Under the pieces are notes generated by a model. It was not told where the DNA came from. It saw only the letters and a program-made list of their open reading frames with translations, and did no database searches. 27,882 bases of DNA from a virus. Shown here piece after piece: positions 6,879 through 26,706 of this stretch; the first letter of the stretch is position 1, and every line of letters starts with the position of its first letter. The DNA is taken from positions 1 through 27,882 of IMG/VR virus record IMGVR_UViG_3300001460_000142, one strand, 5' to 3'. The position numbers were made by a program, and so were the translations under genes.

Positions 6879-7249
6879 TTTTGAGAAGCTCCTTTCTCTA
6901 CTCTATAAGAGTCTTCGTTAAAGTGTTGTGTACTTACCTCAAAAACACTAGATTCCTCTAGTGCTGTTAATTTATGAGGGACACAAGGTTCAAGATGAAC
7001 TACATCTCCTTCAATTAATTCTCTTTTAAGTTTTTCTGCCTTTTCTAAATCAAAATATTCTAATTTAAGTCTTCCTTTTGTGACACACCAAGTTTCTTCT
7101 TTTTTGATATGGTAATGCATAGAAAAAGAAGACCCCTCGTTAAAACGAAGGATCTTCCCGCAATATTTTTCGTTGTTAGTTATCCAAAGCTCATCTCCCC
7201 AACCTTTTGGGTGAGCTTCTAGTCTAGAAAAAACAGGCTCAATACTCAT
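6875..7249 (-). CDS. Cupin sugar-phosphate isomerase/epimerase-like protein, 124 aa
   Basis: A single cupin barrel with metal-binding residues H45, H47 and E51 or E52 in HYHIKKEET, and H92 in VPHKL. The N-terminal GWGDELWI and the layout resemble the C-terminal cupin of mannose-1-phosphate guanylyltransferase/mannose-6-phosphate isomerase proteins. It starts the sugar operon, directly behind a strong promoter whose -10 box is 7 nt from the ATG, and overlaps the kinase gene by GTGA. A role in GDP-mannose or heptose precursor supply is likely from context; the exact substrate cannot be read from sequence. Confidence 0.75.
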   Translation of the reverse strand: MSIEPVFSRLEAHPKGWGDELWITNNEKYCGKILRFNEGSSFSMHYHIKKEETWCVTKGRLKLEYFDLEKAEKLKRELIEGDVVHLEPCVPHKLTALEESSVFEVSTQHFNEDSYRVEKGASQK

Positions 7250-7544: not shown

Positions 7545-8297
7545 TTACAAACCTTTTGGTTTTTGTTTATCTCTAATAAAAGCTCGTTCCTTACCTATTT
7601 CTGTAATCTCTTGAGAGTCTTGTGGACGGCCAACAAATAATGCTTTATTCCTCTCTGAAGCTTCTCCACTTTTAAGATAACTAAATGTAATTGCTCTCCT
7701 CTCGGAATTAACAGTGGGGACACCATGATATGAAGTATCTGAATTAAGGAAAATAACAAGCCTATTATTAATTGGTTCTAATTCTCGTTTCATTTTCTGC
7801 ATACTATCGTCCCAGATTTCTAAACAGCCCTCATCTTTTTCCCTAACATAATTCTCTTTGTTTAAATAAAACAAAAGAGTTAATTCTTTCCTCAATTTAT
7901 TCTCTGGGTGTTTCCTCGCATCGCTATGAATCATTTGATATGATTTTGGAAGCATTGTCCTCATGCCAGACCACCTCATGCTTTTATCAACATGAATATC
8001 TTCTATTTTGGTTATATCTTTAACATAGTTCAAAAATTCAACATCATGAAAGAATTCAACTAACTCAGCAATTTTACTTGGCATTTTATCTAAATCACTA
8101 ATCGCCAGCATTTTTTCTTCTAGAATATTTGTTTTCCCATTTATTTTTTTATGGCCAGAATGCCACAACTCAGATTCTTTATCTGGCCATTCTTTTTTAA
8201 TATCATCAACTAAATGATTCTGAAGTAAATTATCTACTACCCAAACTGGGTAAGGGTCAGTAAAACTTTTAATTTCCAAATTATCACTTAATTTCAT
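7545..8297 (-). CDS. 2-oxoglutarate/Fe(II)-dependent oxygenase, 250 aa
   Basis: The facial triad of a double-stranded beta-helix dioxygenase is visible: H124-S-D126 in MIHSD, distal H191 in SYHGVP, and the 2OG-binding Arg at about 200 in ERRAITFSY (numbered from the chosen start). The spacing fits the prolyl-4-hydroxylase-like 2OG-FeII oxygenases common in marine phages. I chose ATG at 8297, just behind the TAG of the upstream gene, because MKLSDNLEI begins a normal domain; the longer frame to 8357 only adds residues overlapping the neighbour. Substrate unknown: a phage protein, nucleotide or surface sugar are all possible. No Shine-Dalgarno is visible; expression probably depends on coupling to the upstream gene. 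Confidence 0.85.
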   Translation of the reverse strand: MKLSDNLEIKSFTDPYPVWVVDNLLQNHLVDDIKKEWPDKESELWHSGHKKINGKTNILEEKMLAISDLDKMPSKIAELVEFFHDVEFLNYVKDITKIEDIHVDKSMRWSGMRTMLPKSYQMIHSDARKHPENKLRKELTLLFYLNKENYVREKDEGCLEIWDDSMQKMKRELEPINNRLVIFLNSDTSYHGVPTVNSERRAITFSYLKSGEASERNKALFVGRPQDSQEITEIGKERAFIRDKQKPKGL

Positions 8298-8301
8298 TTT
8301 A

Positions 8302-8592
8302 CTATAATTTAATTGTAATTGGAGCAATTTCCTCCAATTCTTCGCAAAGCCTGTCAATCTCCCCTCTTTCCATTTTTCGAGCTTTACTCCTTAATTTTGA
8401 TACTTGCGCTCCAAAATCACGAAATTGTTCGTCTTGATTTATATTGCACTTTAATTTACTATCAAAAATAAAAGTATCAAATACCTCATATCGAATAGGG
8501 TCAATGCATTTTTCAATAGGATCAAATGTAGAATTTCCTACGACATAATCAAAGATGTCATACCTGCTTACCTTGATTTTAACTTTTTCCAT
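8302..8592 (-). CDS. Hypothetical protein, 96 aa
   Basis: A soluble protein with a beta-rich first half (MEKVKIKVSRYDIFDYVVG) and a charged helical second half (KLRSKARKMERGEID...). I do not recognise the family. It begins a transcription unit with a perfect TATAAT 6 nt before its ATG and ends 4 nt before the oxygenase start, so the two are probably co-expressed. Confidence 0.65.
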   Translation of the reverse strand: MEKVKIKVSRYDIFDYVVGNSTFDPIEKCIDPIRYEVFDTFIFDSKLKCNINQDEQFRDFGAQVSKLRSKARKMERGEIDRLCEELEEIAPITIKL

Positions 8593-8598
8593 CTAACT

Positions 8599-8629
8599 AT
8601 TATAAATAGAAAAATAAAGATTTCTACAA
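8599..8629 (-). promoter_or_regulatory. Promoter of the oxygenase unit
   Basis: A perfect TATAAT (8604-8599) lies 6 nt from the ATG at 8592. A possible -35, TTGTAG (8629-8624), sits at a long 19-bp spacing, or TGTAGA at 18 bp, so the -35 is weak. Confidence 0.5.
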
Positions 8630-8632
8630 AAT

Positions 8633-8857
8633 TTATTTACTTGATAAATAAATTTCTTTTGACATCACATTACTTGTTTCTCTTCTAATAATTACAATTG
8701 GATCATCATAAAAATTAATATCAAGAATTCTATTCTTGTTATATTGCCAATAATCTAAAGCTTCTTTTTCGTTATGAAATTCTGGGGTATCTGCAAGAGG
8801 TTCATACTTAAAGCCTCTATCTTTTGCTATAATATGAACTTGCTTATATTTTTTCAT
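8633..8857 (-). CDS. Hypothetical protein, 74 aa
   Basis: A small protein with a basic N-terminus (MKKYKQVHIIAKDRGFKYEP), a central FHNEKEALDYWQYNKN helix and a beta-rich end. The family is not recognised. Its ATG lies 2 nt after the stop of the beta-propeller gene, so it is read as the last gene of that unit. Confidence 0.6.
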   Translation of the reverse strand: MKKYKQVHIIAKDRGFKYEPLADTPEFHNEKEALDYWQYNKNRILDINFYDDPIVIIRRETSNVMSKEIYLSSK

Positions 8858-8859
8858 TT

Positions 8860-10062
8860 TTAGAACTCAAGCTTGATAGCTTTTGAGGTGCCAGCTAAAC
8901 CAAGGTAAACATTCTTATCTTTTACTAAAGCTGCTGTTGAATATCCAGTTCCTATACTCATAATCCCAGAACCCGCTTTAGCACTTAAGTGGCCATCTGA
9001 AAATTCGTATTCATAATCTTTCCATTGTATCTCATAGGTTTCTGGATTAATTCTAAAACACTTGGTATCAGCCCAAAACGAACTGTAAAGCCAACCATCA
9101 GGAGCCAAGTAACCGTGAAAGTTTTTATTTTTATTAGCTAAAGCAAGATAATCCTTCGGTAAGTCTATCTCTTCATAACTATCATCAATACAATTAATAA
9201 TAAGAATCTTTTTTCCTGTTCTCGGTAAACAAAAGATCTTGTTCTCCGACTCTACGTAAGTCGCTCCAACATATTTTACTGAGAAGCCCGAAACTCCTGA
9301 CGTAACTGGAGCCCCATCTAAATATGTAAATTTTCCATCTTTATCAATTTTTGAGATACTCGTCCCAAGTGCAGGTGGCATATAGACCTCTCCCTTTTTG
9401 TCAGTAGTCGCTCCCCAAATATGATTAAACATTGTATACCGATTTGGTTTAGGTGGCGTAAATGACCCAACTTCTCCTGTATTTGTATCTAAAGTATAAA
9501 TTTTTAAAGTTTTAGTATAAGAGGGCATGTAGATAATTCCATTTAATCCCTCTGCCCCAGATCTAACTTGAGGACTCATCTTGAATTTCTTTTCTATAGT
9601 TATAGAACCAGTCTTCCTACCGAGTTTACCAATAGAACTTGCATAAGCTGGCATAAAGTAAGTATATCCATCCGAAGCCTCGACAGTGCCGATAAAACCT
9701 TTGTAACCTAATTTATTTCTTTTTATAGAATCAGTGGCTGTATCAGTCTCAATATGCATGTCCGACTTATAACCCAACGAATGAATGATGCCGTTATCAT
9801 CTATCGCCATAGTGCGTGTTTTAGTAAGATTGCCGACTATTTCGTTTTTTAAATATTTAAAACTCGGCCAAGGCAAACTAGTCGATCCGATGCCAACGCT
9901 CGTCGATCCGATGCCAACGCTCGTCGATCCGATGCCAACGCTCGTCGATCCGATGCCAACGCTCGTCGATCCGATGCCAACTCTTGGAGAAACAACTTCG
10001 TTAACTACTTTCTTGTAAGTTTTTAAGAAGTTAAGTATTTTTTTTATGAACCCATAAAACAT
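8860..10062 (-). CDS. Beta-propeller-like protein with a VGIGSTS tandem-repeat stalk, 400 aa
   Basis: The N-terminal 28 residues are basic and amphipathic, possibly a virion or membrane anchor. Residues about 28-62 are five copies of VGIGSTS encoded by five near-perfect 21-bp repeats. The rest (about 70-400) contains repeated modules of the type Y-x-P...I-x-x-L/I-D-x-x-T-G/D-G (for example GIIYMPSYTKTLKIYTLDT, GEVYMPPALGTSISKID), as in NHL, SMP-30 or Kelch-like propellers; I estimate five to seven blades. Propellers in phage fibres often bind or cleave glycans. VGIGSTS-type motifs are also common in phage fibres, so a minor tail or receptor-binding protein on a stalk is my best guess. It follows the endolysin by 45 bp and precedes a small unknown. 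No catalytic signature is evident. Confidence 0.7.
   Translation of the reverse strand: MFYGFIKKILNFLKTYKKVVNEVVSPRVGIGSTSVGIGSTSVGIGSTSVGIGSTSVGIGSTSLPWPSFKYLKNEIVGNLTKTRTMAIDDNGIIHSLGYKSDMHIETDTATDSIKRNKLGYKGFIGTVEASDGYTYFMPAYASSIGKLGRKTGSITIEKKFKMSPQVRSGAEGLNGIIYMPSYTKTLKIYTLDTNTGEVGSFTPPKPNRYTMFNHIWGATTDKKGEVYMPPALGTSISKIDKDGKFTYLDGAPVTSGVSGFSVKYVGATYVESENKIFCLPRTGKKILIINCIDDSYEEIDLPKDYLALANKNKNFHGYLAPDGWLYSSFWADTKCFRINPETYEIQWKDYEYEFSDGHLSAKAGSGIMSIGTGYSTAALVKDKNVYLGLAGTSKAIKLEF
9881..9985. repeat. Five tandem 21-bp repeats inside the propeller gene
   Basis: The unit GTCGATCCGATGCCAACGCTC (plus strand, 21 bp) begins at 9881, 9902, 9923, 9944 and 9965. The first four copies are identical; the last differs only at its end. 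The unit is 13/21 G+C in AT-rich surroundings. Being 7 codons long, gain or loss of units would change stalk length without breaking the frame. Confidence 0.95.
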
Positions 10063-12700: not shown

Positions 12701-12791
12701 GATTGTTTCTTAATTCTATATAAAAAAGCTTATTTTTTAAAGATAAAAACAACTCAATTGATTTTAGAACACTTTTAATTAAGGAAAGCAT
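12525..12791 (-). CDS. i-spanin-like / coiled-coil protein overlapping the lipoprotein gene, 88 aa
   Basis: The N-terminal 27 residues form a moderately hydrophobic helix (MLSLIKSVLKSIELFLSLKN), then a charged coiled-coil region (HEKQRKRIIQEIENIRS) and RADLLRDELIRE with FQHLSAFYA. The 3' 176 bp also encode the lipoprotein in another frame. Position and overlap suggest the inner-membrane partner of a spanin pair, but the N-terminal segment is weak for a transmembrane anchor, so a peripheral role is possible. The start overlaps the epimerase stop by 17 bp. Confidence 0.6.
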   Translation of the reverse strand: MLSLIKSVLKSIELFLSLKNKLFYIELRNNHEKQRKRIIQEIENIRSNGGDADRADLLRDELIREDASFQHLSAFYAESKEGSSSKHK

Positions 12792-13617
12792 CGATATTTT
12801 GTTCTACATATTGTTCTACAGTCTGCCATTTATAGTCCCCAATAACTTCTATAAGTTTTGAGTTATCTGCCTTGGTCAACTTTTGATATTGCCCTTTTAA
12901 TTCTTTAGGCATTGGCACCTCTGTAATTGTAGTATAAGCATTCGCTTTTATTATATTGGCTACATCTCTAAAAGAAATCTCCTGTCCTGTTCCTACATTA
13001 TAAATGCCTGACTGTTCTATATCTAGCATTCTGTAGTGCATTTCACAAACATCATCTACAGAGACAAAATCTCTTTTATACTTTTCGCTTTTCTCAAAAA
13101 GTATTATTTCACCGTTTTTTTGAGCTTGTTTAATGAATTTAGAAACAGGGCTGGCTTGATCGCCTTTTTTTTCTTCTCCTAATCCATATACGTTAAAGTA
13201 TCTAAATCCTTGATATGGATAATTTTGATTCATAAGCCAACAATCAAACATATACTTACTATAAGCATAAGGGCTTAATGGTTTACAAAAATCAGATTCT
13301 TTAAAACTCCTTGATACCCCATAAACAGAAGCACTACTTGCATACTGGAACTTAATTTCCAACATTTCACACATTTTATAGAGTTTTGTAGAGAACTCAA
13401 AGTTTTGATTTAATATTTTTTTCAGATCAGTTTCGGTAGTGCTAGAGTTGGCCCCAAGATGTATAACTATATCTTGATCAAGCAAATCAGGAATGCCTGA
13501 GTTCCCAAGATTAATATCAAACCTAGTTACATTATATCCTCTATGCTCTAGATAAGCAGAAAGATTACCTCCAATAAATCCTCCTGCTCCAGTTATTAAA
13601 ACTTTATTCGCTTTCAC
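12775..13617 (-). CDS. hldD: ADP-L-glycero-D-manno-heptose 6-epimerase (HldD-like), 280 aa
   Basis: An extended short-chain dehydrogenase with NAD(P)-binding GAGGFIGG (residues 10-17), the HldD signature SSTTETD (58-64), catalytic Y117-x-x-x-K121, GFRYFNVYG, and KRDFVSVDDV. The C-terminal KGQYQKLTKADNSKL closely follows the HldD pattern KGRYQAFTQADL. HldD converts ADP-D-glycero- to ADP-L-glycero-manno-heptose in the cytoplasm, the last step of precursor supply for LPS inner core. It is about 30 residues shorter than E. coli HldD. It is separated by 6 kb from the kinase and transferase genes it should work with. Its start overlaps the upstream gene by 14 bp. The STTETD motif makes HldD much likelier than a generic sugar epimerase. 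Confidence 0.9.
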   Translation of the reverse strand: MKANKVLITGAGGFIGGNLSAYLEHRGYNVTRFDINLGNSGIPDLLDQDIVIHLGANSSTTETDLKKILNQNFEFSTKLYKMCEMLEIKFQYASSASVYGVSRSFKESDFCKPLSPYAYSKYMFDCWLMNQNYPYQGFRYFNVYGLGEEKKGDQASPVSKFIKQAQKNGEIILFEKSEKYKRDFVSVDDVCEMHYRMLDIEQSGIYNVGTGQEISFRDVANIIKANAYTTITEVPMPKELKGQYQKLTKADNSKLIEVIGDYKWQTVEQYVEQNIDAFLN

Positions 13618-14533: not shown

Positions 14534-14698
14534 TTATTTATTGTTAAATTTTCCTTCGACGCTTTTCCAGAATTTTTCAGCGCCGATAGCAAGATACCTA
14601 CCCTTTAGGGTTTTGTAAAGTTTTTTTTCAATATGATTAGCTTTTTTTTTATCGTATCCAATAAGTTGACGAATTCTTCTAGCAGCAGATCCACTCAT
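14534..14698 (-). CDS. Small basic protein, 54 aa
   Basis: Read directly from sequence: ATG at 14698-14696, stop TAA at 14536-14534. The product begins MSGSAARRIRQLIGYDKKK and ends with FWKSVEGKFNNK; it is rich in Lys/Arg and predicted helical, so nucleic-acid binding is plausible. The ATG overlaps the TGA of the AAA+ gene in an ATGA and the stop lies 2 nt before the next start, which fits this operon exactly and supports it as real. Two homopolymer A runs (nine and eight) lie in the gene. Confidence 0.65.
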   Translation of the reverse strand: MSGSAARRIRQLIGYDKKKANHIEKKLYKTLKGRYLAIGAEKFWKSVEGKFNNK

Positions 14699-17037
14699 GC
14701 TTTATGATCGACGTTGCTATTGTCTTTTTCAATAAAAAGTTTGATATTCTTTTGTCCCTTCAAGATAGAATCTGAAACAAAAGGAGTTATCTCTGATAAT
14801 ATCTTATTACTCAAAGCTTCTATTTTTATTTTTTCTTTCAGAATGCTTTTAATTGTTTGTTTAATGTAAATAAAATCAAAACTTAAATTAATATCATTAT
14901 CTTTTAAGCGATTTTTTAATCTTTTTAATTTCATCCACAATAATCTTCTGAGCCCCTTCTCATCAATCTGCTTAAGAGGGAAACACTCATCTACAAGAGA
15001 TAGGATATCTGGATGAATAATAAGATTATCTTTATTAGATGCTGCCTTTTGAAACCCCATTGATGATTGGCTATTAGAAATAGAACTAGTTAAAAATATT
15101 TTACAATTTGTAAAATCTGCTATGTCTCCATTATTCATTTGAAACTTCCCATGTTTAAATATTTGATTAAATAAAGGAATTGCCGTATTATCTACTTTAT
15201 CAAAATCATCTATAACTATAACGCTATTTGGAGATATTAATACTTTTTCACATATTGAGGTGTTATTACCTTGCGATGTAGCTATTTTATGTGGAGCAAA
15301 CGCATCCGCAAAATGAACGCCGCTATAAGATAAAACATTAACTCCATGTTTCTGTAAGCTATCTTTAAATAAATCCATAAAGTAAGATTTACCGCTAAAT
15401 CTAGCCCCGCTTATTACATAGCATTCTGGAGCGGAAAAATTATCAGTCTTTTTTATACCTAGACTAGATAAGGTAATTTTATCTTTTAGTTTTTGTAATA
15501 GGTTATTTTGCCCGACAAGAGATTTACTAACGCAAGAAAAAACTTTGTCTACTATAACTCTATCGTTTAATGGATTTGATTTCTTTTTAAAAAAATCTTT
15601 TAAGTGAGATAGTTTTACTTCTGGTGTTAAGTCTGAAACTCCCTCTGTCCATTTTTCCAAACTATCATTTAATTTTTCAAGCAATTGAATATGATTCTTC
15701 TCTGGGTCTAGGGCCGCAGCTATAGTTTCTTCTTGTTGACTTTTGATTGATGGAGTAACATGCCAAAAATTTACTTTTGCTTGCGCTCCGCAATGATCAA
15801 TTATGTCAATTGCTTTATCTGGATAATATTTATTAGGAATATATTTCTCACAATAACCAATTATATTTTCAAGAAATTGATCGCTGTATGTGATGCTATG
15901 AAAATTTTCATAATAAGAAACTATTGTAGGTAAAATTTCTTCCATTTGAAACCTTGATGGTTCCCTGATGATTACCCTCTCAAATCTTCGATCAAGAGCA
16001 GTATCTCTTTTAATGGTATTTGTATACTCGTTAATAGTCGTTGCTCCGATACAACTTATTGTTCCTCTTGCAAGCTCGGGTTTAAGGATGTTAGACGCTT
16101 CTAGAGAGTTATTTGTTGCTCCTCCTGCCCCAATAAGCGTATGAACCTCATCAATAAACAAAATTAAATTACTGTATTTTTTAGCCTCATTAACAAAGTC
16201 TTCTAGTCTTTTTTCAAACTGACCTCTGTATTCAGTCCCTGCTACCATGCTTGACAAACTTACAGAATATATAACTTTATTAGCAATTAACTCTGGAGCG
16301 TCTCCCGAAACAATTTTAGAAGCTAAACCCTCCACAAGAGAAGTTTTACCTGTCCCAGCGGGGCCAACTAAAAGAGCGTTTGGTTTTTTCTTTCTGCAAA
16401 GAACAGTTGCTACCTCATCAATTTTCCCGTCGAAATCAACAATTTTATCAAACTCATCATTTAAAGCTTTTAGATTAAGATTCTCTGCGAATTGAGAAAG
16501 AACCTCATTTTTATCAAACATGTCGATCCAGTCTTCAGGTGTTTGAACATCCATAAAACTAGAAATCTCTTGAGGATCAATATCTTTTATGATTAAAGAA
16601 CACTCTGTAACAAATCCTAGAAAAATCTCATCAGAATACTCGTCTTCCTTGGGATAAATATTTTTTATTACTTTAGGACAATGATTTTCATCAAAGAAAG
16701 TCATCAGTATTACCTCTGGTGGGATATAATCTAATTTAAAATTTTCTATAGAAATATCTTCAGCTTCTTTTAGTAATTTTCTTACATCTGTTTTTAAAAC
16801 TTTTTTAGTGTTTTTATTTTTACGTTTCTTATTTAAAACACTCCTAGATTCTTTTATTAAATCTTTTGGGTCTACATTTAGTTTTTTGAATATAGAGGAA
16901 CAAGACTGCCCCAAATTACTCAAAAAACAATGGAAGAACAAATCAATATCCGCTCCATTTCTTTCTAAAATCCCAGCAAGTTCTTTTGTTTTTTCTAGAA
17001 CCCCCTCTATATGTGGAGTGAGAGGTAGTTTATGCAT
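14695..17037 (-). CDS. ClpA/ClpB-like two-ring AAA+ ATPase, 780 aa
   Basis: Layout of a Hsp100/Clp protein: an N-terminal Clp_N-like helical domain (first repeat about 5-65), a variable basic linker, AAA ring D1 with Walker A GPAGTGKT (225-232), pore-adjacent GTEYRGQFEKRL, Walker B LFIDEVHTLIGAG (293-305) and arginine finger LDRRFER (348-354), then D2 with a divergent Walker A GARFSGKS (544-551) and Walker B VIVIDD (606-611). D1 is close to bacterial ClpA; D2 is degenerate but keeps the P-loop Lys. Clp proteins unfold proteins with ATP. It follows the polymerase gene with an 8-bp overlap and a strong GGGAGG ribosome site, so a job at the replisome (remodelling or clamp handling) is tempting; using host ClpP is another option. 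No phage ClpP is visible. Confidence 0.9.
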   Translation of the reverse strand: MHKLPLTPHIEGVLEKTKELAGILERNGADIDLFFHCFLSNLGQSCSSIFKKLNVDPKDLIKESRSVLNKKRKNKNTKKVLKTDVRKLLKEAEDISIENFKLDYIPPEVILMTFFDENHCPKVIKNIYPKEDEYSDEIFLGFVTECSLIIKDIDPQEISSFMDVQTPEDWIDMFDKNEVLSQFAENLNLKALNDEFDKIVDFDGKIDEVATVLCRKKKPNALLVGPAGTGKTSLVEGLASKIVSGDAPELIANKVIYSVSLSSMVAGTEYRGQFEKRLEDFVNEAKKYSNLILFIDEVHTLIGAGGATNNSLEASNILKPELARGTISCIGATTINEYTNTIKRDTALDRRFERVIIREPSRFQMEEILPTIVSYYENFHSITYSDQFLENIIGYCEKYIPNKYYPDKAIDIIDHCGAQAKVNFWHVTPSIKSQQEETIAAALDPEKNHIQLLEKLNDSLEKWTEGVSDLTPEVKLSHLKDFFKKKSNPLNDRVIVDKVFSCVSKSLVGQNNLLQKLKDKITLSSLGIKKTDNFSAPECYVISGARFSGKSYFMDLFKDSLQKHGVNVLSYSGVHFADAFAPHKIATSQGNNTSICEKVLISPNSVIVIDDFDKVDNTAIPLFNQIFKHGKFQMNNGDIADFTNCKIFLTSSISNSQSSMGFQKAASNKDNLIIHPDILSLVDECFPLKQIDEKGLRRLLWMKLKRLKNRLKDNDINLSFDFIYIKQTIKSILKEKIKIEALSNKILSEITPFVSDSILKGQKNIKLFIEKDNSNVDHKA

Positions 17038-19591
17038 TCCTCGCCTCCCTCAATTTCATAAATATACTTGTCTCAATAGGATTAACCTTATCTACAAAAA
17101 AAGTATCTCTACTTTTAGATCCATTTAAAACAATTACTTTGCTTTTAGCTAATTTGAAGCCGCTTTTTAAGAAATCAGATAATCTTTCTTCTCTTGCGTT
17201 ATCCATGAATAGAAAGTTTTTTGTCGCTGTGTTATCGCAGATTGATATCATCATGTATTTATTACCATTTTGAGAAGTTCTAGTAAAAAAATCTTTTACC
17301 TCTCCTACAACTTGGAAGGTCTGCCTATCAACAAGGTCTTCAATTTGTTTTAAGTCAATGAGAGAAGAGAACCTATCTTGAAAACACTCTCTTAAATTAT
17401 GAGAGTAACTATAACCTAGTAAAGAACTTTCATATCTCCATTTAGCAAACATTTCATGTTTTCTATTTTGATTATAGATTTTTTTATACTGATCAAATTT
17501 ACTTTTAAATGTTTTAAATCTTTTCTCTGCCATTATCGGTCTATTGTCATCTCCTAGAGTTTGTTTCCCTAGAACCTCTGAGATCGCATTTAATATATCA
17601 TGACCAAACCTATCCCCGATTTTAACAAAATTCCTTTTTTCTCTATCTGTAAGGAGATTAAAAGCTTGGGCTTCAAGGACCATGCGAGTTCTGTTGGTTC
17701 CCGCATGGTCCATTGTTCCAGCCTGTATTAAAGCAGCAAGGACTGATATGTTGATACCGCACTGCTTTGCAGCTAAAAAAACTTCATACTTATTATTAAA
17801 TTTCATCCCCCTAAAATCAATAAGGCTTTCTATTGATTTAAGTGAGATACCCTTGATGCTATTTAACCCATAGCGAATGTCCCTATCTTCAATTGTAAAG
17901 CCAAATTCAGACTTGTATAAACAAGGAGGAAGCATTTTCATCCCAAAATCTATAAGTTCTTCATTTACTCCAGAGACTGTTTGAAGAGGCTCTGGGTCAA
18001 ACTCAGCGCACTCAAGAATAGATAGAAAAAATTCATGAGGATATTTGTGTTTTAAGTAAACTGTTTTGGCAGCAAGGTCTGCATATGCAAAACTGTGAGA
18101 CTTGTTAAAGGAATAGTGAGAAGCAGCCACCAAGGAGTTCCAATAGAAATCTGCTATCTCTTCTGTTAAGTCTCTGGATGTAGCTGCCTCATAAATTCTA
18201 TCCTTCCATTTAGGCATCTCTTCCACCTTTTTCTTGCCGACAATTCTTCTTAAGACTTCCGCTTCCTCAAGCGTTAATCCAAAAACTTTGTGAGCAATCT
18301 GCATCAACTGCTCTTGATAAAGAATCACATTCTTTGACCAAGACAGAATAGAATCAAGCTCTGGGTTTAAATCTAGTTGAGAAGGAAAATCTTTTTGTGT
18401 TTTATATACACCAACAAACTCAAGAGCTGCTGGCCTAGCTAAAGCAACAACATCAGAAAGTTCATTTATATCTTTTGGCTTTATCTCTCTGCATACTTTA
18501 AAGTTGGTTTCTGCAGATATTTGAAATAAGCCCATAGGATGCTTAAAGTCTTGCAATATCTCATATATCATTTCATCGTTCGCATCTATGTCTTCAATAT
18601 CTATCCCGACTTTCTCGCAAGTTTTGTGAGCGATTGTTAAAGTTCTTAATCCTAAAATATCAAACTTTACCATCAGGTCTGCTACATCATTCATATCATA
18701 GCCAGTAATTAAATCGCCATCTTTTGTTCTCTGCAAGGGAACAATATTTTCAATATTTTCTGAACAAATCGCGATGCCAGATGGGTGGACTCCAGTATTT
18801 TTAGGCAAGTTTTGTATCTTTAAAGCATTATCAAATGTCTTCTTATGATTCTTTACCCATTTTTTAAATTTGTCACTCTCTTCTTTTGCTTGATTAAGAG
18901 GGAAAACAACTCCGTGAAGTTTAGGAATCATATCAGAAACTTGATTTGCTTCATCCTCTTTTGCTTCGTCAAAATATTTAGTAGCTTCTCTAATACAAAG
19001 TTTAGAGCTAAAAGTATTGAACGTTAATATTTTAGCAGTTCTACCCTTGTGTTTTTTCTCAATATATTCAATAACTCTGTATCTTTGATCGTATGAAATG
19101 TCTGAATCTACGTCAGGTAATAAGCTACCAACAAGAAACTCTTTACCTCTTTTATCTGTAATTTTTTTCGCTCTAGATTTAGAAACAAATCTCTCAAAAA
19201 ACAGACTATGAGGGATTGGATCAATATTAGTCACTCCAAGAAGAAATAGAATAAGAGAACCAGCAGCAGATCCTCGACCAGCGCCAGTAGGTATATTGTT
19301 GTCATGACAAAAATTTAAAACATCCCAGTTAAGAAGAATATAGTCTGTGAATCCAAGTTCTTCAAATGTCTCAAGTTCTTGTTTCGCTCTTTCAAAATAA
19401 ACTGCTTTGTTTTCGTATTTTGTGATACCTTTATCTCTCAAACCTTTTCTAGTAAGCTCATAAAGAATATCCTTTGTAGAGCTATCTGAACCAAGGCCGA
19501 TTTCTTCTAGCTTGTTCTGATCAACAATTGTTTTAGGAAGGTCTACTCCCGCAGGTTCACAATCGTCGTATGGTGTGAAATCTTCAAACAT
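17030..19591 (-). CDS. dnaE: C-family DNA polymerase III alpha catalytic core (DnaE-like), PHP domain absent, 853 aa
   Basis: Palm motifs are intact: GAGRGSAAGS (103-112), the two metal Asp in PDVDSD (D162 and D164), GVHPSGIAI (266-274) and the third Asp D310 in MVKFDILGLRTLT. Fingers, a helix-hairpin-helix region (about 610-690) and a C-terminal OB fold (about 755-830, VVGEVKDFF...) follow. The usual 270-300 residue N-terminal PHP domain is missing: the protein starts just upstream of the palm. The missing part is probably the product of 20192-20893, with the exonuclease gene between. It should replicate the phage genome, probably with a host clamp since no clamp gene is seen here. The start overlaps the exonuclease stop as TAATG. 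Confidence 0.93.
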   Translation of the reverse strand: MFEDFTPYDDCEPAGVDLPKTIVDQNKLEEIGLGSDSSTKDILYELTRKGLRDKGITKYENKAVYFERAKQELETFEELGFTDYILLNWDVLNFCHDNNIPTGAGRGSAAGSLILFLLGVTNIDPIPHSLFFERFVSKSRAKKITDKRGKEFLVGSLLPDVDSDISYDQRYRVIEYIEKKHKGRTAKILTFNTFSSKLCIREATKYFDEAKEDEANQVSDMIPKLHGVVFPLNQAKEESDKFKKWVKNHKKTFDNALKIQNLPKNTGVHPSGIAICSENIENIVPLQRTKDGDLITGYDMNDVADLMVKFDILGLRTLTIAHKTCEKVGIDIEDIDANDEMIYEILQDFKHPMGLFQISAETNFKVCREIKPKDINELSDVVALARPAALEFVGVYKTQKDFPSQLDLNPELDSILSWSKNVILYQEQLMQIAHKVFGLTLEEAEVLRRIVGKKKVEEMPKWKDRIYEAATSRDLTEEIADFYWNSLVAASHYSFNKSHSFAYADLAAKTVYLKHKYPHEFFLSILECAEFDPEPLQTVSGVNEELIDFGMKMLPPCLYKSEFGFTIEDRDIRYGLNSIKGISLKSIESLIDFRGMKFNNKYEVFLAAKQCGINISVLAALIQAGTMDHAGTNRTRMVLEAQAFNLLTDREKRNFVKIGDRFGHDILNAISEVLGKQTLGDDNRPIMAEKRFKTFKSKFDQYKKIYNQNRKHEMFAKWRYESSLLGYSYSHNLRECFQDRFSSLIDLKQIEDLVDRQTFQVVGEVKDFFTRTSQNGNKYMMISICDNTATKNFLFMDNAREERLSDFLKSGFKLAKSKVIVLNGSKSRDTFFVDKVNPIETSIFMKLREARNA

Positions 19592-20205
19592 TACAGGTCC
19601 ATGTGTTTTTTTAACTTTAAGAAAATTTCATAACACATTTTAATATCGTATAAAGCATCATGCAGTTTCTCTTCTTCAAAATCTATATCAAAAAACTTTA
19701 ACAACTGATTTTGTGATACCTTTGCTTTTAAGCTCCTATCATTCATGATTTTGTATTGCCAGCCTAGAAAATCACTTTTTGGTTTATCTAGTTCCTCTCT
19801 GTATGCTTTCCCCAAGGCTCTAGTGTCATATATTCTTGGTAAATAAGAATAATCTGGCTGTTCCCCAAGCATTCTTTGCAGATGAGCAATCATATATACG
19901 TCAAATCCTAATAAGTTTTGACCAACTACAATGTATTGTGGATCGAATAAATATTTTTCAAACTGAGACCAAACAGAAATCAAGGACTCTGCCTTTCCGT
20001 TATATTTATCCCAATCAAACCCAGTTAACTTTCTAACAACTTCTGGTATGTTTAATTCCTTGTGTTTGATAAATTTATCATGTGTTTCAATAACATTCTT
20101 TCCTTGACATACTATCCAAGATAGCTGCCAAGTTTTAGAAGAGTGTAAATTTAAACCTTCTGTTTCTGTGTCGAAGACGAGATATTTTTGATTACTTGGC
20201 AACAT
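19591..20205 (-). CDS. DnaQ-like 3'-5' proofreading exonuclease (DEDDh), 204 aa
   Basis: Motif I FDTETEG (residues 11-17), motif II with Asp in GQNLLGFDVYMIA, and motif III with H-x4-D in HDALYDIKM show a complete DEDDh exonuclease, as in the epsilon subunit of DNA polymerase III. It would proofread for the DnaE-like core. It lies between the PHP-like gene and the polymerase core with overlaps on both sides (14 bp and 3 bp), so the three should be made together. No separate clamp-binding motif was recognised. Confidence 0.9.
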   Translation of the reverse strand: MLPSNQKYLVFDTETEGLNLHSSKTWQLSWIVCQGKNVIETHDKFIKHKELNIPEVVRKLTGFDWDKYNGKAESLISVWSQFEKYLFDPQYIVVGQNLLGFDVYMIAHLQRMLGEQPDYSYLPRIYDTRALGKAYREELDKPKSDFLGWQYKIMNDRSLKAKVSQNQLLKFFDIDFEEEKLHDALYDIKMCYEIFLKLKKHMDL

Positions 20206-20893
20206 TTTCTAAAAAGGATTCATAGCTAAATTCATCAGAGCAGAAATCATTTAATCTTGGGTTACTATATGTAGGAACCCTTCCCTGCTTACGACTACAG
20301 ATTGCTTTATACATTTGAAATGCTTCAAAGTCTTCTTTATCTCTGTAATAAATACTCTTTGCTTTTTCTGTTTTCACACCTAGTTTTTTTAGGGCTGCAC
20401 TAATTTGAAAGTCAAAAGGGTGATTGTTTGATTCTTCTATATAGAAGTGATCATACTTGTCTAAAAAAAGCTCACACATCCCAAAATGAAAAATATTGTT
20501 AAAGACATAAGAATCATAAAAAGGGACTCCAATACTAATGTCATCTAGTTCACCCTTTCCTAAATCGTCAAGATGAAGACATTCCCCCTCGCTGGTATGA
20601 CACTTTGTATACAGTTTTCTCGCTATAGCAACCCCTTTGTTGTTCTTTGGGAAGAAAATTAGTTTGCTAGGTTTTTCTAAATAAAAACTAGATTGGACAA
20701 CAGGCAGTTTTACACCAAAGACCATAGGGACATCGGTATTTAAAAACGCTTTATTGATGACTCTAAATCCGTAGAAATTATCTTCTACTAGAATCATCTT
20801 TTTTATCTCACCAGACTCGGCAATGTCTACTAAATCTTCGACCCTTAACAGGGATCTACCTATGCTGAAAGTGCTTTTGAATAATGGTATCAC
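20192..20893 (-). CDS. PHP-like N-terminal part of a split DNA polymerase III alpha, 233 aa
   Basis: The start IPLFKSTFSIGRSLL, then VEDLVDIAES...KKMILVEDNFYGF and VPMVFGVKLPV, follows the order of DnaE PHP domains (short S-x-S loop, LVxxAxxxGxxAxxxTD, then KPIxGxE). The metal-binding H-x-H is replaced by K-S-T-F-S and other His are sparse, so hydrolytic activity is unlikely. Position directly before the exonuclease and polymerase core supports it as the detached alpha N-terminus. Similarity is weak, so this is a structured inference. The start codon is GTG, and an AGGAG motif runs into it (its last G is the G of GTG), an awkward spacing. Confidence 0.65.
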   Translation of the reverse strand: MIPLFKSTFSIGRSLLRVEDLVDIAESGEIKKMILVEDNFYGFRVINKAFLNTDVPMVFGVKLPVVQSSFYLEKPSKLIFFPKNNKGVAIARKLYTKCHTSEGECLHLDDLGKGELDDISIGVPFYDSYVFNNIFHFGMCELFLDKYDHFYIEESNNHPFDFQISAALKKLGVKTEKAKSIYYRDKEDFEAFQMYKAICSRKQGRVPTYSNPRLNDFCSDEFSYESFLENVAK

Positions 20894-20902
20894 TCCTGTA
20901 TA

Positions 20903-21943
20903 TTACAAAAGTTCCATAGGTTTGTCAAAGGAAAAAGCAGGGCATCCATCATATTTAACCTTTTCAATCTTTAAATCTTTAGTTTCTTTACTTTTAAGAT
21001 CTTCTTTAAGGTCTGCTGATGCTATCCTTACGCCGCTTGTATCGACTAAAGTGTAAAATTCTCTTGGGAACTTGAAGGGACAATGCCACATCGGTGTGCC
21101 GTCTTTTTTAAGTTGTCCAGCGTAATCCGCTCTACCACAAACCACTCTACCCGCAAATCCATCGTCTTTTCCCAAGTAACCCTTATTGTAAGCTAAATTT
21201 TTAGAAGCTAACACTTCATTAAAATTATTAATAATTTGTTGGACCTCTGTTAAGAAATACTCAAAACCCTCTAATTCGTCATCGTCTAAAGGGTTCATTG
21301 TGCAATTTCCCTCATTGTTGCAATCGAACTTTAAAAATAAAAACTCCATCTGACGCTTTAAAAAATCTGGATATAGATGTTTTACTGCCAAACAATACAT
21401 TAGGTTTTGCATATTGTCTGTATAATCTTTTCCTGAAAAAATTTGTTTAGATGTTTTAAAGTCTCTAATAACTGCTTGCTTTTTTCTTTTGAAAAGAAAC
21501 AACTTATCAATAAAACCTAATATTCTGTAATTTTTGCTTCCTTCTAACACAGAAATATCAAAATCTTTTTCGCTTATTGACTCTGTAGGTTTGCTATCTT
21601 TATCTCCAAAGAAGTCAAAGTTTAGACCCTCTACAGTCATCTGGTTGATAAGATCCATGTTCTCAAAATCATCTATACCGTGCTTCTTTGCATAAGACTC
21701 TATCATCCTTTTTACAGGTAGAGAAGCATAAGCATTTTGCGTTTTTACAATCCTAGTATAGTGCTTTCTATGTTTTGGGTTGCCAAGATTTTCAAACACA
21801 GCATGGCAGATTGTCCCGCGCAGACTTCCTTCATTTGACTTGTCTGGCAATTTTAAGTGATACTTGCACCAATACTGCCAAGAACACATCTGGAGTGTCT
21901 TTATGCGAGATGCTGAGAGAGGCTTGTTATCAGAATTCGTCAT
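20903..21943 (-). CDS. Cas4/RecB-like PD-(D/E)XK exonuclease, 346 aa
   Basis: LSASRIKTLQMCSWQYWCKY near the N-terminus, GSLRGTICHAVFENL (conserved R-G-x-x-x-H), then GFIDKLF and VIRDFKTSK give the order of PDDEXK_1 (Cas4/AddB) nucleases, with D-(x)n-D-x-K metal residues and the QNLMYCLA helix. Cysteines near the N-terminus (C20 and C25 region) and late (VVCGRADY, WHCPF) could hold a 4Fe-4S cluster. It lies between the primase and the polymerase genes, overlapping the primase by 14 bp, so DNA end processing in replication or recombination is likely. It ends in PMELL, the same as the nuclease candidate at 4770-5306. Confidence 0.85.
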   Translation of the reverse strand: MTNSDNKPLSASRIKTLQMCSWQYWCKYHLKLPDKSNEGSLRGTICHAVFENLGNPKHRKHYTRIVKTQNAYASLPVKRMIESYAKKHGIDDFENMDLINQMTVEGLNFDFFGDKDSKPTESISEKDFDISVLEGSKNYRILGFIDKLFLFKRKKQAVIRDFKTSKQIFSGKDYTDNMQNLMYCLAVKHLYPDFLKRQMEFLFLKFDCNNEGNCTMNPLDDDELEGFEYFLTEVQQIINNFNEVLASKNLAYNKGYLGKDDGFAGRVVCGRADYAGQLKKDGTPMWHCPFKFPREFYTLVDTSGVRIASADLKEDLKSKETKDLKIEKVKYDGCPAFSFDKPMELL

Positions 21944-22976
21944 AATGAAATGAATTTTTCTTTACAAGCTTTGAATAAGAAGAAGAAAAACTTTTGTTTA
22001 CACCTCTGTCATTCATGCCCTTTGCTATAGAAATAACTTTAGACATTGACTCTTGATGTTGAACATTATAGCAGTCTAGGCTGTATTTTTCTATTTGATT
22101 TTTACTCATCTCTCCGAAATCATTTTCTTCGGGAGGGATAAAGTAAACTTTGTCAAAATCAATTGTCTCAACCAATTTAAAAATAGATTTAATTGCACCT
22201 TCAAAGCCTCTATTTATAGACGAAGTGTGATCATTATTAAATGATATAAAAACTTTTTTTACAGGAAGTAGGGAAAGCCTTGCTATAAATTTAGGTGAAA
22301 TATTTAAGCCAAAAGAAACAAGAACATTTTTTATACCGTTATCGTAAAGAGATAAACAGTCCCCCACAGATTCGACAATATGAACAGCCTCCTTTTCTGT
22401 TATTGCTTCTTGAACCTTGTCTACATTGTAGTATGGGAAAAACCAACCAGAAGATTTCCCCATGTGAAGCCATTTAGGTCTATCGTCATTGGTAACTTTT
22501 CTACCAGAAAACCCATGTATTCTTCCGTCTTTCCTGAATACAGGAAATATTATTCTCTGATACATTTTGCCAGACATTGCTAGGCCACATTTAAAATCTT
22601 GAAGGGTATCTTTGCTAATCCCTTTTTCTAGATAAAAATCGTGATGAGGAAGAAGGCGAGTTAATACCTTTTGAGAAAATGTTTTTTCTTCTTTCAATAG
22701 ATGTTTTTGCTTGATTCTTGCTCCTATATTTACACCATTATCCTTTAAATAGTGCTTTACAGCATTTGTATCTTTGGTATTTAAGGTTTTTTGGAGAAGA
22801 GCTTCAAAGGGCATAAACTGAGAGTCCTCTACATAATCTTTCCAGACCCCAGTATCTTTATAGATCTGAAGAGCAGTTGAATTATCTCCAGATCTGTATA
22901 CTGCATTAGTCCTCCAGTATGATCCATGATCCTTGAGGCGATACCCAAGGTTTTCTAACACATCTTTATAATTCAT
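21930..22976 (-). CDS. DnaG-type primase with TOPRIM domain, 348 aa
   Basis: The N-terminal part (YWRTNAVYRSGDNSTALQIY...GVWKDY) resembles a primase zinc-binding domain without the usual Cys. The middle KGISKDTLQDFKCGLA and RIIFPVFRKDGRIHGFSGR are typical of DnaG. TOPRIM motif I Glu is in VESVGDCLS; the usual D-x-D appears as FNNDH, so one metal ligand is replaced by Asn. A C-terminal helicase-contact region is not distinguishable. It should make RNA primers for the phage fork together with the DnaB-like helicase two genes upstream. Confidence 0.85.
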   Translation of the reverse strand: MNYKDVLENLGYRLKDHGSYWRTNAVYRSGDNSTALQIYKDTGVWKDYVEDSQFMPFEALLQKTLNTKDTNAVKHYLKDNGVNIGARIKQKHLLKEEKTFSQKVLTRLLPHHDFYLEKGISKDTLQDFKCGLAMSGKMYQRIIFPVFRKDGRIHGFSGRKVTNDDRPKWLHMGKSSGWFFPYYNVDKVQEAITEKEAVHIVESVGDCLSLYDNGIKNVLVSFGLNISPKFIARLSLLPVKKVFISFNNDHTSSINRGFEGAIKSIFKLVETIDFDKVYFIPPEENDFGEMSKNQIEKYSLDCYNVQHQESMSKVISIAKGMNDRGVNKSFSSSYSKLVKKNSFHYDEF

Positions 22977-22984
22977 TCTAAAAC

Positions 22985-23404
22985 TTAGTCTTGAAACGGG
23001 TTATTAAGATAAGTAATCGCCCTTTTTAATACAAATGGATCATCATCAAATTTTCCAAGAGCATTGTTACAGTCATTGCATATCCACCCTCTAAATTCCG
23101 CTGTTTCATGATCATGATCTAGCACGGGGTTTTCACACTCTTTACGACATATTGGGCAAATTATCCATTTAGGTCTTTTATATTTTTTATGGAGTTGCGA
23201 AGATTGGCTTTTTAGTATATTATAACATTGTTTGCAACAGTGTTTACGGTATTCTTTTTTATTCCCATTTTTATCTACCGTTGTTAGATGGATTGGAAAA
23301 AAATCAATAGGGAGCCTTCTTTTGCACATTTTTTTGCAAACTCTAAACTCCTCTCCCTCTGGTAAACCGAAATCATCCCAGAACTCTGTTTGTTCTCCTC
23401 TCAA
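22985..23404 (-). CDS. Endonuclease VII-like HNH nuclease with N-terminal zinc finger, 139 aa
   Basis: The C-terminal half has CPICRKECENPVLDHDHET and RGWICNDCNNALGKFDDDP, matching recombination endonuclease VII (two Cys pairs, catalytic DHDH). The N-terminal half has a CKKMC...KHCCKQC finger (with LPIDFFP) often fused to phage HNH nucleases. Such enzymes resolve branched DNA before packaging or act as homing nucleases; in this operon, between helicase and primase, junction cleavage is likely. The start codon is TTG overlapping the helicase TGA; no ATG occurs before residue 26. Confidence 0.85.
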   Translation of the reverse strand: MRGEQTEFWDDFGLPEGEEFRVCKKMCKRRLPIDFFPIHLTTVDKNGNKKEYRKHCCKQCYNILKSQSSQLHKKYKRPKWIICPICRKECENPVLDHDHETAEFRGWICNDCNNALGKFDDDPFVLKRAITYLNNPFQD

Positions 23405-24939
23405 GCCCTTAAATTCACTGGTATTTCCTCTGAGTCATTTGTATTAACCTCGACCCCTCCTCCATTAAAAACATTTACAATGTCTTGCAAGTCTCCACAC
23501 TCAGTAATCCGAAAGTTTTCTATGTTTAAATTAATAAAGTTCTGTTTTTTAGTTCCATCTGGCATCTCTACTGGATGAATAGCTCTGAGAGCATCTCTAC
23601 CAAGATGTCTGCATTTTAAATTAATTAATTTATGAGTGCCAAAGTTAACTCCTTCCTCATGAATTTCATCAGCAACTTTTCTGCGAAGCAAGAACAAATG
23701 AGAGCAGAACTGAGTGATTCCATCAGATAAAGAAACAACGCTTTCATCATCAACTATTCCCGCAGCCCCTCTATTGCTTGTAATTCCCAGCCTGTTAGAC
23801 TGCACAGAAGTGAGCATAGAAACACAAGGTTTGCCGTCAAAACACAAATCTCTTTGAATTGTTTGCTTAAACTTATGCACCATATAGGATACTTGTTGCC
23901 AGCCATCAACCTTGCCAATACTACCAAAGTCACTCTTAATATAATCAAAACTAAAAATAAGTGGATTGCCTCTACCAATTTTAGAAAAATAAAATCTTTT
24001 AAGCAGAGAACACATTTCATCTGGAGATAATCCAGCGACATTCTCATAGTAAAATTCCATGTCTTTGATTTTACCCCAAGCTGATCTAACTTTAGCTACA
24101 ACCTGATCTACTGTTAAATTTTTATATCCTGTAGTTCTCCATTTCCCTGTCTGTAAAAGCCACACAGGAATACCCGTCATTGCAGAACACTGTCTGAAGA
24201 TAAGTTCTTCTTCACTCATTTCTCCATTATCAAAGTGAAGAACAGCGACTTTATGTTCAGCAGAAACTCTTGTAGTATAATCCATACAAAAATTTGTTTT
24301 ACCTACTCCAGATCTAGCGACAATAACAGAGATATTTCCTGCAAGTAGTAGCGATCCATACATCTCATTGATTCGTGGATGTGGGCCAAGCATACCAAAA
24401 TCCTCCACAGGATTATCTCCCCGATCCTCAACAAGATCTTCCATCATGTCGAACAAGTTGACGGGACCAGATTCTGTCATCTCGAAATCTTTTATGTTCT
24501 TATTATAGAGTTGATCAGACTGTTCAATAAGTTCTCCATACTTGAGATTAGGATCTGCATTCTTTACAAAAGAAGCAACCTTCTTGCAGCTTGTGTATAT
24601 TTCTCTACGAGCGCTATACTTTTTAAGCTCCTTTACAGAACTTAAAAAAATGTTTTCTGTAATCTTATAGAATGCTAAAGAAAAAACATACTCTGCAACA
24701 TCTACACTGTCAGGAAAAGTAACTTTTAATTGTTGTATCCTCTGAACTAGAATTGTCTCATCAATGCTTTCAGCGTTATCAAGTGCATTTTTTAATAATT
24801 TAAATATTGATACATTTACTTTTGAATCCTCTGAGTAAAAATCACCATCATTAACAAAACTAGAAATCTCTTCCCACTTATGCTGATGCTGAATAATACC
24901 GCTTAAGACTTTTTTTTCTAAATCAAAGGAATAAATCAT
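23401..24939 (-). CDS. dnaB: DnaB-like replicative helicase, 512 aa
   Basis: An N-terminal helical domain (about 1-130) and linker are followed by a RecA-like core with Walker A ARSGVGKT (208-215), Walker B hydrophobic strand LIFSFDYIK, SVQSNR, and a late RHLGRDALRA. Length and layout match DnaB/DnaC replicative hexamers. It should unwind the phage fork. Start ATG overlaps the upstream TGA as ATGA; its own stop overlaps the TTG start of the HNH gene. No separate helicase loader is recognised in the window; the 77-aa protein upstream is too short to judge. Confidence 0.9.
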   Translation of the reverse strand: MIYSFDLEKKVLSGIIQHQHKWEEISSFVNDGDFYSEDSKVNVSIFKLLKNALDNAESIDETILVQRIQQLKVTFPDSVDVAEYVFSLAFYKITENIFLSSVKELKKYSARREIYTSCKKVASFVKNADPNLKYGELIEQSDQLYNKNIKDFEMTESGPVNLFDMMEDLVEDRGDNPVEDFGMLGPHPRINEMYGSLLLAGNISVIVARSGVGKTNFCMDYTTRVSAEHKVAVLHFDNGEMSEEELIFRQCSAMTGIPVWLLQTGKWRTTGYKNLTVDQVVAKVRSAWGKIKDMEFYYENVAGLSPDEMCSLLKRFYFSKIGRGNPLIFSFDYIKSDFGSIGKVDGWQQVSYMVHKFKQTIQRDLCFDGKPCVSMLTSVQSNRLGITSNRGAAGIVDDESVVSLSDGITQFCSHLFLLRRKVADEIHEEGVNFGTHKLINLKCRHLGRDALRAIHPVEMPDGTKKQNFINLNIENFRITECGDLQDIVNVFNGGGVEVNTNDSEEIPVNLRA

Positions 24940-25169: not shown

Positions 25170-25582
25170 TTTAAAAGTTTAATTAAGTTTGCAGGGTATT
25201 TTTTTGAATCCATTATATCAGACTCTAATACTCTAATAATTTTGATTTGATTAATATCGCAAAAATATTCTTTCTTCTCATCTCTCTGCAATTGATGTAA
25301 AAATTTCTGGCGAGAGTCAGAGTGGAAAAACCGATTAAACTTGTAGTGTTGATTGCCGTCAACTTCAATCGCTATCTTTTTAGTAGCATTATAAAGATCT
25401 AGTGTCATCCTAGTGCCAGCGACAGGAAACTCTTCAAAAACCACATCTGCAAACCAATACGGCTTAACTTGATCTTTTACGTCTTTTTGTATCCCGCTTC
25501 TACAGTCAGAATCCCAGTCAATAAGATATTTGCTGACATTTTTTATTTTTTTCTCTCGACCATTTGAACATAAAAATTTCAT
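25166..25582 (-). CDS. PD-(D/E)XK-fold nuclease with EVDGxQH motif (DUF559/Vsr-like), 138 aa
   Basis: LDLYNATKKIAIEVDGNQHY (61-80) gives D62, E73-V-D75 and H79, followed by QRDEKKEYFCD and IKIIRV. This is the core of DUF559/Vsr-like endonucleases. Such small enzymes nick or cut DNA; joined by ATGA overlaps to the RecA-like gene, a role in phage DNA recombination or repair fits. The first 50 residues, with several Trp/Tyr (IDWDSD, YWFADV), could contact DNA. It has no recognisable zinc finger. Confidence 0.75.
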   Translation of the reverse strand: MKFLCSNGREKKIKNVSKYLIDWDSDCRSGIQKDVKDQVKPYWFADVVFEEFPVAGTRMTLDLYNATKKIAIEVDGNQHYKFNRFFHSDSRQKFLHQLQRDEKKEYFCDINQIKIIRVLESDIMDSKKYPANLIKLLK

Positions 25583-26706
25583 TGTTTAAGAATATTATCT
25601 TTGACAAAATCTACTAATAGAGAGGTAATTTTTTCATCTGACTCTAGAAATTCATAAACTGATTTAATTCCTTGGTAAGAATCCTTTGTTTCAATTTTAT
25701 TTTCTTTAAGATAATTTTTTATTTTATCATCCAGTTTAATCCAAGCACCTGATTTCTCTAGATAGCCCCACATCAAAAGCATATCAACAACCTCCCTCTC
25801 AAGCCAAATAGATCTTCCATTTTTACGACCATGTTTAATTGGGTAGGTAACAATTTGACCTGTCGCCTCATTTGTTGATTTTAAAATTAACACTTTGGCG
25901 TTGTGTCCATAAATTTTATTATCGGGGGTAATTTGTTCTGTTGGCTTTTCTAGAATTTTGTCACTCTTATTTTGCTTTTTGAATTCTAGAATCCAATCTG
26001 GGTAATGTAAAATAGCATTGCCTCCACTGCTGTTTGTCTGGTTATTTGGGTCTTGCTTCGCATACATACTTGTAGTGATAGTTGATCTCACCTGAGAAAT
26101 CATGATGCACATGTGTCCAAACTTACTCATGCCTAAACTGACTCTTTTTAAGAAATCAGATGTCATTAAAGCTCCTCCCGCTACTTTTCTAGCGTCAGAA
26201 GATCCTTTTTCTAAATCTTCTTTTGTAATCAACCCATCCATGCTGTCGATAACAATACAAAACTTTTCCTTATCTGGATTATTTTTAAGCAAGCCTCTTA
26301 AAAAATCAATCATCGTATCCATTATGTGACATTCAAGAACCAAACAAGTCCCTGTATCCCAATCTTCTGCACTCTGCACGAATTTAATTCCCGCTCTATC
26401 TTTAACGTCTTGACTTAATCTACCTTCTGCCATCACAAAAAGACCTTTAGAATTTTCTACCGTCTTAAGCATATTGTGCATTACATGCAGGGCTTCATTT
26501 GTTTTGCCCCCTTCGTTTGCTCCGATAAACCTATGTAATCCAGACCCAAATCCTCCACTCAGAACATGATCGAGAATCATTGATCCACTTGACACTAGAT
26601 ATGGTTCCGCACCTTCCTCTAGGTTGTAGTGGTAGTCCTTATTAGATTTAAGGAATGCTTCTGTATAATCTTTTGATCCGCTGCTTTTTTTCTTCATTTT
26701 AGTCAT
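25579..26706 (-). CDS. RecA/UvsX-like strand-exchange recombinase, 375 aa
   Basis: Walker A GANEGGKT (62-69), Walker B FCIVIDSMDGL (about 145-155), a MISQVR strand and then NSSGGNAILHYPDWILEF, corresponding to the loop L2/GG-x-A-L-x-F region of RecA. Overall length and order fit phage RecA/UvsX proteins. It would drive recombination-dependent replication and repair. The start is at 26706 with an 8-bp overlap; an ATG three codons later (26697) is equally possible. The C-terminal 60 residues are a separate helical extension ending KDNILKQ. Confidence 0.88.
   Translation of the reverse strand: MTKMKKKSSGSKDYTEAFLKSNKDYHYNLEEGAEPYLVSSGSMILDHVLSGGFGSGLHRFIGANEGGKTNEALHVMHNMLKTVENSKGLFVMAEGRLSQDVKDRAGIKFVQSAEDWDTGTCLVLECHIMDTMIDFLRGLLKNNPDKEKFCIVIDSMDGLITKEDLEKGSSDARKVAGGALMTSDFLKRVSLGMSKFGHMCIMISQVRSTITTSMYAKQDPNNQTNSSGGNAILHYPDWILEFKKQNKSDKILEKPTEQITPDNKIYGHNAKVLILKSTNEATGQIVTYPIKHGRKNGRSIWLEREVVDMLLMWGYLEKSGAWIKLDDKIKNYLKENKIETKDSYQGIKSVYEFLESDEKITSLLVDFVKDNILKQ

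Follow-up and report, generated by a model that had tools for sequence, protein, structure and literature searches.

A phage DnaE-type DNA polymerase divided at the PHP/palm boundary, with a DEDDh exonuclease gene between its parts

The PHP domain has been described as a universal domain of C-family DNA polymerases (PMC12926913) and as contained in one C-family polypeptide chain (PMC3666897). In the alpha subunit of E. coli Pol III (DnaE1), where it spans residues 1-280 (PMC4703070), the domain is inactive, and mutations in its degenerate metal site lower both the melting temperature and polymerisation; alpha unfolds cooperatively, the whole protein behaving as one unit (PMC3666897). Loss of the PHP metal site accompanies a separate epsilon exonuclease (PMC3666897), and E. 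coli epsilon contacts the PHP domain by means of its C-terminal tail and helix (PMC4703070). So far, the non-catalytic role of the PHP domain has been difficult to disentangle from the overall protein fold. Our literature search, which covered few subscription journals, found no paper describing a detached PHP domain.

C-family enzymes are the rarest of the three polymerase families in tailed phages (PMC11348598). An earlier annotation of the DNA considered here had called them unusual in phages and, whilst their relative rarity is borne out, they are hardly exotic, with 1309 phage records matching. In deposited phages DnaE usually forms a single chain, but several exceptions are known. The phages phiT1, MrMiyagi, TR-TP1 and Cellulophaga phi19:2 encode DnaE in two genes, as do cyanobacteria. 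In these phages, however, the break lies inside the palm and fingers (positions 142-144 or 314-333 of the core described below) and the PHP domain is still fused to the N-terminal half, whilst the cyanobacterial parts are joined by a split intein. In three loci from cultured phages (L161, L340 and L343) the break falls around or just after the third catalytic aspartate, at core positions 314-333, with an HNH gene at the break in one of the three; this region is a recurrent site of breakage or insertion. In PolC of Gram-positive bacteria the PHP, exonuclease and polymerase domains belong together, but in one chain. In Wifcevirus WFH a gene for a DEDDh-type exonuclease lies immediately upstream of dnaE and shares 1 bp with it, but this dnaE is full length and includes the PHP domain.

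The window analysed here is a viral sequence of 27,882 nt (IMG/VR record IMGVR_UViG_3300001460_000142, positions 1 to 27,882). Its polymerase genes and their neighbours, all on the minus strand and listed in order of increasing coordinate, are as follows.

14695-17037, minus strand: Clp-like AAA+ protein (phrog_4871), overlapping the core gene by 8 bp
17030-19591, minus strand: DnaE catalytic core lacking a PHP domain (palm, thumb, fingers, HHH, OB fold), 853 aa
19591, minus strand: 1-bp overlap of the exonuclease stop and core start (TAATG)
19591-20205, minus strand: epsilon-like DEDDh 3'-5' exonuclease of 204 aa, lacking a C-terminal tail of the epsilon type
20192-20205, minus strand: 14 bp shared by the PHP and exonuclease genes (ATGTTGCCAAGTAA)
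20192-20893, minus strand: alpha-N, a standalone DnaE-type PHP domain, 233 aa, GTG start, without H-x-H
20903-21943, minus strand: PD-(D/E)XK nuclease (PF12705, 3.3e-16)
21930-22976, minus strand: DnaG-like primase (PF08275, 1.3e-7; phrog_47, 1.3e-23)
23401-24939, minus strand: DnaB-like replicative helicase (phrog_19, 3.8e-30)
25579-26706, minus strand: UvsX/RecA-like recombinase (phrog_97, 3.3e-32)

The first-pass annotation had proposed that a C-family polymerase is encoded here as a PHP-like part, an exonuclease and a catalytic core in three overlapping genes, and both the open reading frames and the profile matches agree with this. Its 14-bp PHP/exonuclease overlap can be read directly in the sequence, and the same -14 spacing is common to most close relatives. 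The sole error we found concerns the exonuclease/core overlap, given as 3 bp but in fact 1 bp.

The core is a C-family DNA polymerase of the DnaE type. It matches the Pfam domains DNA_pol3_alpha (PF07733, 4.8e-59), DNA_pol3_finger (PF17657, 2.9e-31) and HHH_6 (PF14579, 9.5e-17), with the DnaE fingers, HHH and C-terminal OB fold present in that order, and NCBIfam DnaE models score up to 455 bits against 27 bits for PolC. An AlphaFold2 model of the protein (pLDDT 84.6) has C-family polymerases as its top PDB matches in Foldseek, led by M. tuberculosis DnaE1 (7pu7, E 1.9e-40) and followed by the Taq and E. coli enzymes, the alignment to DnaE running to about 865 columns. Residues D160, D162 and D311, the D-x-D pair and third aspartate of the Polbeta-like palm, are invariant and align with E. 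coli D401, D403 and D555; the polymerase active-site residues are intact. Two elements of E. coli alpha are missing, however. The phage core ends at the OB fold (around position 1047 of 1160 in DnaE) and therefore has no tau-binding C-terminal domain, and the clamp-binding pentapeptide Q-x-x-[LMI]-[FLY] is lacking between HHH and OB in 23 of 24 representatives.

For the 233-aa protein, identification as a PHP domain is weak from the window sequence alone. The Pfam PHP model PF02811 matches with E 0.0038 and 18 bits, below the Pfam cut-off of 26.4; no match was obtained at E<=1 in a tblastn search of 50,697 deposited phage records, and a profile search found none among PDB sequences. The protein does match the phage DnaE family phrog_405 over positions 50-266 (E 1.2e-8). 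With 32 aligned family members the identification becomes firm: compared by hhalign with an alignment of 11 bacterial DnaE proteins, they align to DnaE positions 12-243 (E 2.4e-13). An HMM built exclusively from standalone phage PHP proteins finds the N-terminal PHP domain of bacterial DnaE in more than 40 loci (best E 6e-9), and in these loci the PHP and polymerase matches lie in one ORF. The AlphaFold2 model (pLDDT 87.7) points the same way, its best 19 PDB matches in Foldseek being C-family polymerases, of which 2hnh, the alpha subunit of E. coli Pol III, ranks first (E 2.7e-10, TMq 0.74), with other PHP-fold enzymes far behind. The DnaE PHP domain can thus be reached from the phage protein by three routes, namely HMM search of DnaE ORFs, profile-profile alignment and fold comparison; profile and structure comparison was the test set in advance for this protein, and both approaches returned DnaE PHP similarity. 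As the first-pass annotation had noted, the H-x-H motif of the PHP metal site is absent, and this holds for all distinct family members that cover the N-terminus. With its metal site lost, the PHP protein is predicted to be catalytically dead, as is the PHP domain of E. coli alpha.

Placed on a single DnaE profile, the PHP protein and the core occupy adjacent, non-overlapping parts: the core matches phrog_405 positions 324-1082 (E 9e-159) and, from residue 35 onward, aligns to DnaE 284-1047 (E 7e-104, hhalign). As one protein covers DnaE 12-243 and the other 284-1047 (E. coli numbering), the break falls in the PHP/palm linker, in keeping with the opening at the PHP/palm boundary proposed earlier. 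In the core model residues 1-12 are predicted to be disordered, and no replacement N-terminal domain takes the place of the PHP domain.

The gene lying between these two parts encodes a complete exonuclease, as the first-pass annotation had stated. It matches PF00929 (1.7e-13) and phrog_192 (3.5e-23), and its relatives among PDB sequences are DnaQ and an exonuclease of the PolC type. Of the NCBIfam models, that for the PolC exonuclease domain scores highest (TIGR01405, 8e-12), although the core it accompanies is DnaE-like. The five DEDDh residues (D12, E14, D102, H182 and D187) are invariant in the family alignment, and the exonuclease active-site residues are likewise intact. A separately encoded, active-type DEDDh exonuclease alongside an inactive PHP domain and a polymerase with its catalytic aspartates is also what E. 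coli possesses; the phage set repeats this combination, with the PHP domain, which in E. coli belongs to the polymerase chain, released from it. One difference is that the 204-aa phage protein stops right after the last catalytic helix and lacks the PHP-binding C-terminal tail of epsilon. Since that tail has no counterpart here, any docking of the exonuclease would have to differ in mode from that of E. coli epsilon. As to how the arrangement arose, the exonuclease gene may have inserted into a broken polymerase gene, or the polymerase may have broken beside an exonuclease gene.

How widespread is this organisation? Scans of IMG/VR turned up core relatives on as many as 419 contig stretches, and up to 80 loci from each scan, together with genome contigs, were analysed. 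All three genes are found with 143 of 152 non-identical cores, always as separate ORFs and always in the order PHP, exonuclease, core; the other nine cores, which lack a PHP gene, each start no more than 740 bp from where their stretch ends, the locus being cut by a contig end. A related phage with a full-length DnaE would have told against a split polymerase, but neither this nor a fused PHP-core protein occurs among the 152 distinct cores: in none of the 143 complete relatives is the PHP domain in the same polypeptide as the polymerase. PHP, exonuclease and core are separate genes in a large family of phages that are uncultured and mostly aquatic, and the earlier reading of a split polymerase is supported. 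Metagenome-assembled genome bins with members include Flavobacteriaceae, Saprospiraceae, Bacteriovorax, Halobacteriovorax, Verrucomicrobiales and others, labels that offer hints as to the hosts rather than proof.

The same data bear on the possibility that the PHP gene reflects an assembly error, a pseudogene or a decayed dnaE fragment. Apart from the sub-threshold Pfam score there is little to recommend this. The same ORFs recur in 143 distinct relatives from many samples and, compared with the relative L003, the PHP, exonuclease and core genes have dN/dS values of 0.050, 0.046 and 0.044, respectively. Purifying selection on the PHP gene is strong. Its dN/dS of 0.05 and the recurrence of the arrangement in all 143 complete relatives exclude chance, and the artefactual explanation, to which we attach negligible weight, was rejected.

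In trees built with 14 bacterial and 14-16 phage DnaE sequences, the cores form one clade (SH-aLRT 100) on a stem of 1.9-2.1 changes per site, which points to a single origin of the split family on a long stem. The genome-contig scan shows a distinct gap: no family member falls below 45% identity to the query (L145), and bacterial DnaE starts at around 32%. A parallel outside the family comes from Krampusvirus, represented by the cultured Microbacterium phages Krampus (L353:1809-5160) and RikSengupta (L346:1762-5259), in which a PHP protein of 344-345 aa and a core of 751-767 aa (phrog_11165), both annotated as DnaE-like, are encoded by two genes and divided at the same PHP/palm boundary. An early view that the split lacked any parallel was dropped on this account. 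The Krampusvirus cores, however, fall outside the split-family clade, no exonuclease gene lies between the two parts, and the RikSengupta PHP protein retains H-x-H. The Krampusvirus split is independent of the one described here and, given its position elsewhere in the tree, the PHP/palm boundary has been broken at least twice. In RikSengupta a 63-aa zinc-ribbon-like ORF lies between PHP and core; otherwise nothing separates the two in Krampusvirus. What is new in the present family is a widespread variant with a PHP domain predicted to be dead, an exonuclease gene in the middle and, by the tree, a single origin on a long stem.

We consider the best explanation to be that alpha has been divided at the PHP/palm linker with the exonuclease gene between its parts, and that the products assemble non-covalently with the dead PHP protein acting as a scaffold in trans (probability roughly 0.77). 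The three overlapping genes would yield three proteins that come together as an alpha-epsilon-like replicase; docked on the core, the PHP protein would serve as its structural scaffold and hold the DEDDh exonuclease near the primer end, performing in trans the role of the E. coli alpha PHP domain in cis. Because PHP mutations in E. coli reduce both stability and activity, a core without its PHP domain would be expected to need a partner. That the proteins bind one another, that PHP acts as a scaffold and carries the exonuclease, and that the set serves as the replicase is inferred.

Assembly might instead be covalent, with split inteins rejoining the pieces as they do in cyanobacterial DnaE. 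Split-intein-like sequences do occur inside the core of two relatives, L044 and L257, but the family alignments contain no intein at the C-terminus of PHP or the N-terminus of the core, the split site differs from the cyanobacterial one, and an exonuclease gene lies in between. With no intein at the break, covalent rejoining is unlikely, and we regard it as scarcely credible. The sequences in the two relatives break the core a second time (L044:6962-7597 and 7670-10042, at GAGRG/CFVSGQSVKLYNG...; L257:5995-7779 and 7789-8982, at SFNK/CMSLDTLVEG...), so that in both the polymerase derives from four genes; the Pfam model Intein_splicing matches them below threshold (1.4e-5 and 2.4e-4).

A more serious alternative is that the PHP domain has left the polymerase altogether, the core acting alone and the PHP protein serving elsewhere, for instance in keeping the exonuclease, or some other replication protein, away from the polymerase. 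Covariation of PHP with the core is no higher than that of PHP with other replication genes (76 sequences, few of them effective, Neff 25), a result that neither favours nor contradicts a PHP-core complex. The PHP protein also evolves faster than the core (47% versus 69% identity in L017), and in L050 the PHP and exonuclease genes lie 290 bp apart with the core 3.4 kb away. Against this, the core is accompanied by PHP in 143 of 143 complete relatives, it has gained no new N-terminal domain, and PHP is a covalent part of the polymerase in bacteria and in nearly all the cultured phages sampled. The co-occurrence of PHP and core is not specific, as the whole replication module is syntenic. On balance we judge a departed PHP domain improbable.

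The free PHP protein could also be aimed at the host replisome, capturing or competing for host epsilon or alpha; since the PHP domain is a binding site for epsilon in E. coli (PMC4703070), it could act as a decoy. However, every complete relative encodes PHP together with the phage's own exonuclease and core, in most cases as immediate neighbours, and PHP sequences diverge to about 30% identity alongside the core, as would be expected of a partner from the phage rather than a conserved target in the host. A host target seems very unlikely, and we retain non-covalent assembly with the phage core as the preferred reading.

Other genes part PHP, exonuclease and core in a minority of relatives. 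In L047 and L050, 3.4 kb separates PHP from exonuclease or exonuclease from core, a distance that weighs against the assembly proposed above. Homing-endonuclease-like genes are found between PHP and exonuclease in L044, L045 and L107, and between exonuclease and core in L205, and in L253 a gene that by eye resembles TnpB lies between PHP and exonuclease.

Twelve long relatives (G001-G012, 92-184 kb) give an indication of how the polymerase is used. Each has a single C-family polymerase gene, and no polymerase of the A or B family (PolA, PolB) is recognisable on these contigs. Seven of the twelve have clamp-loader-like AAA+ proteins, encoded by open frames some 315-344 codons long (for example L333:224-1156), whilst no beta or gp45 clamp was found in any. 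The contigs may be incomplete, and the absence of a second polymerase or of a clamp is therefore provisional; the sliding clamp may also be very divergent. From this gene content, the split DnaE is probably the phage replicase. A broader proposal, to which we give somewhat less than even odds, is that the whole lineage relies on an obligately multi-subunit alpha, with an exchangeable PHP subunit in trans, a proofreader held through an interface other than the epsilon tail, and no recognisable beta or gp45 clamp.

A PHP protein that is naturally separate, apparently dead and yet strongly conserved makes the non-catalytic role of this domain directly testable. The family further points to a large group of phages, apparently uncultured, that depends on a C-family polymerase, and its organisation suggests that searches expecting a full-length DnaE may mis-annotate split replicases of this kind. 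In one 118-kb relative (G003, comprising L330-L335), TerL and the tape measure protein match PHROG families but candidate structural ORFs of 507, 367 and 414 aa do not, and these unmatched proteins mark it as belonging to a poorly sampled phage group.

In 231 of 241 family loci the polymerase is immediately followed by the Clp-like AAA+ gene (14695-17037 in the window). Elsewhere in the window, a 400-aa ORF (8860-10062) carries a tandem SVGIGST repeat near its N-terminus, and a gene cluster of sugar-nucleotide type (5303-7249 and 12775-13617), read by eye, appears to include HAD, cytidylyltransferase, sugar kinase-like, cupin and epimerase genes.
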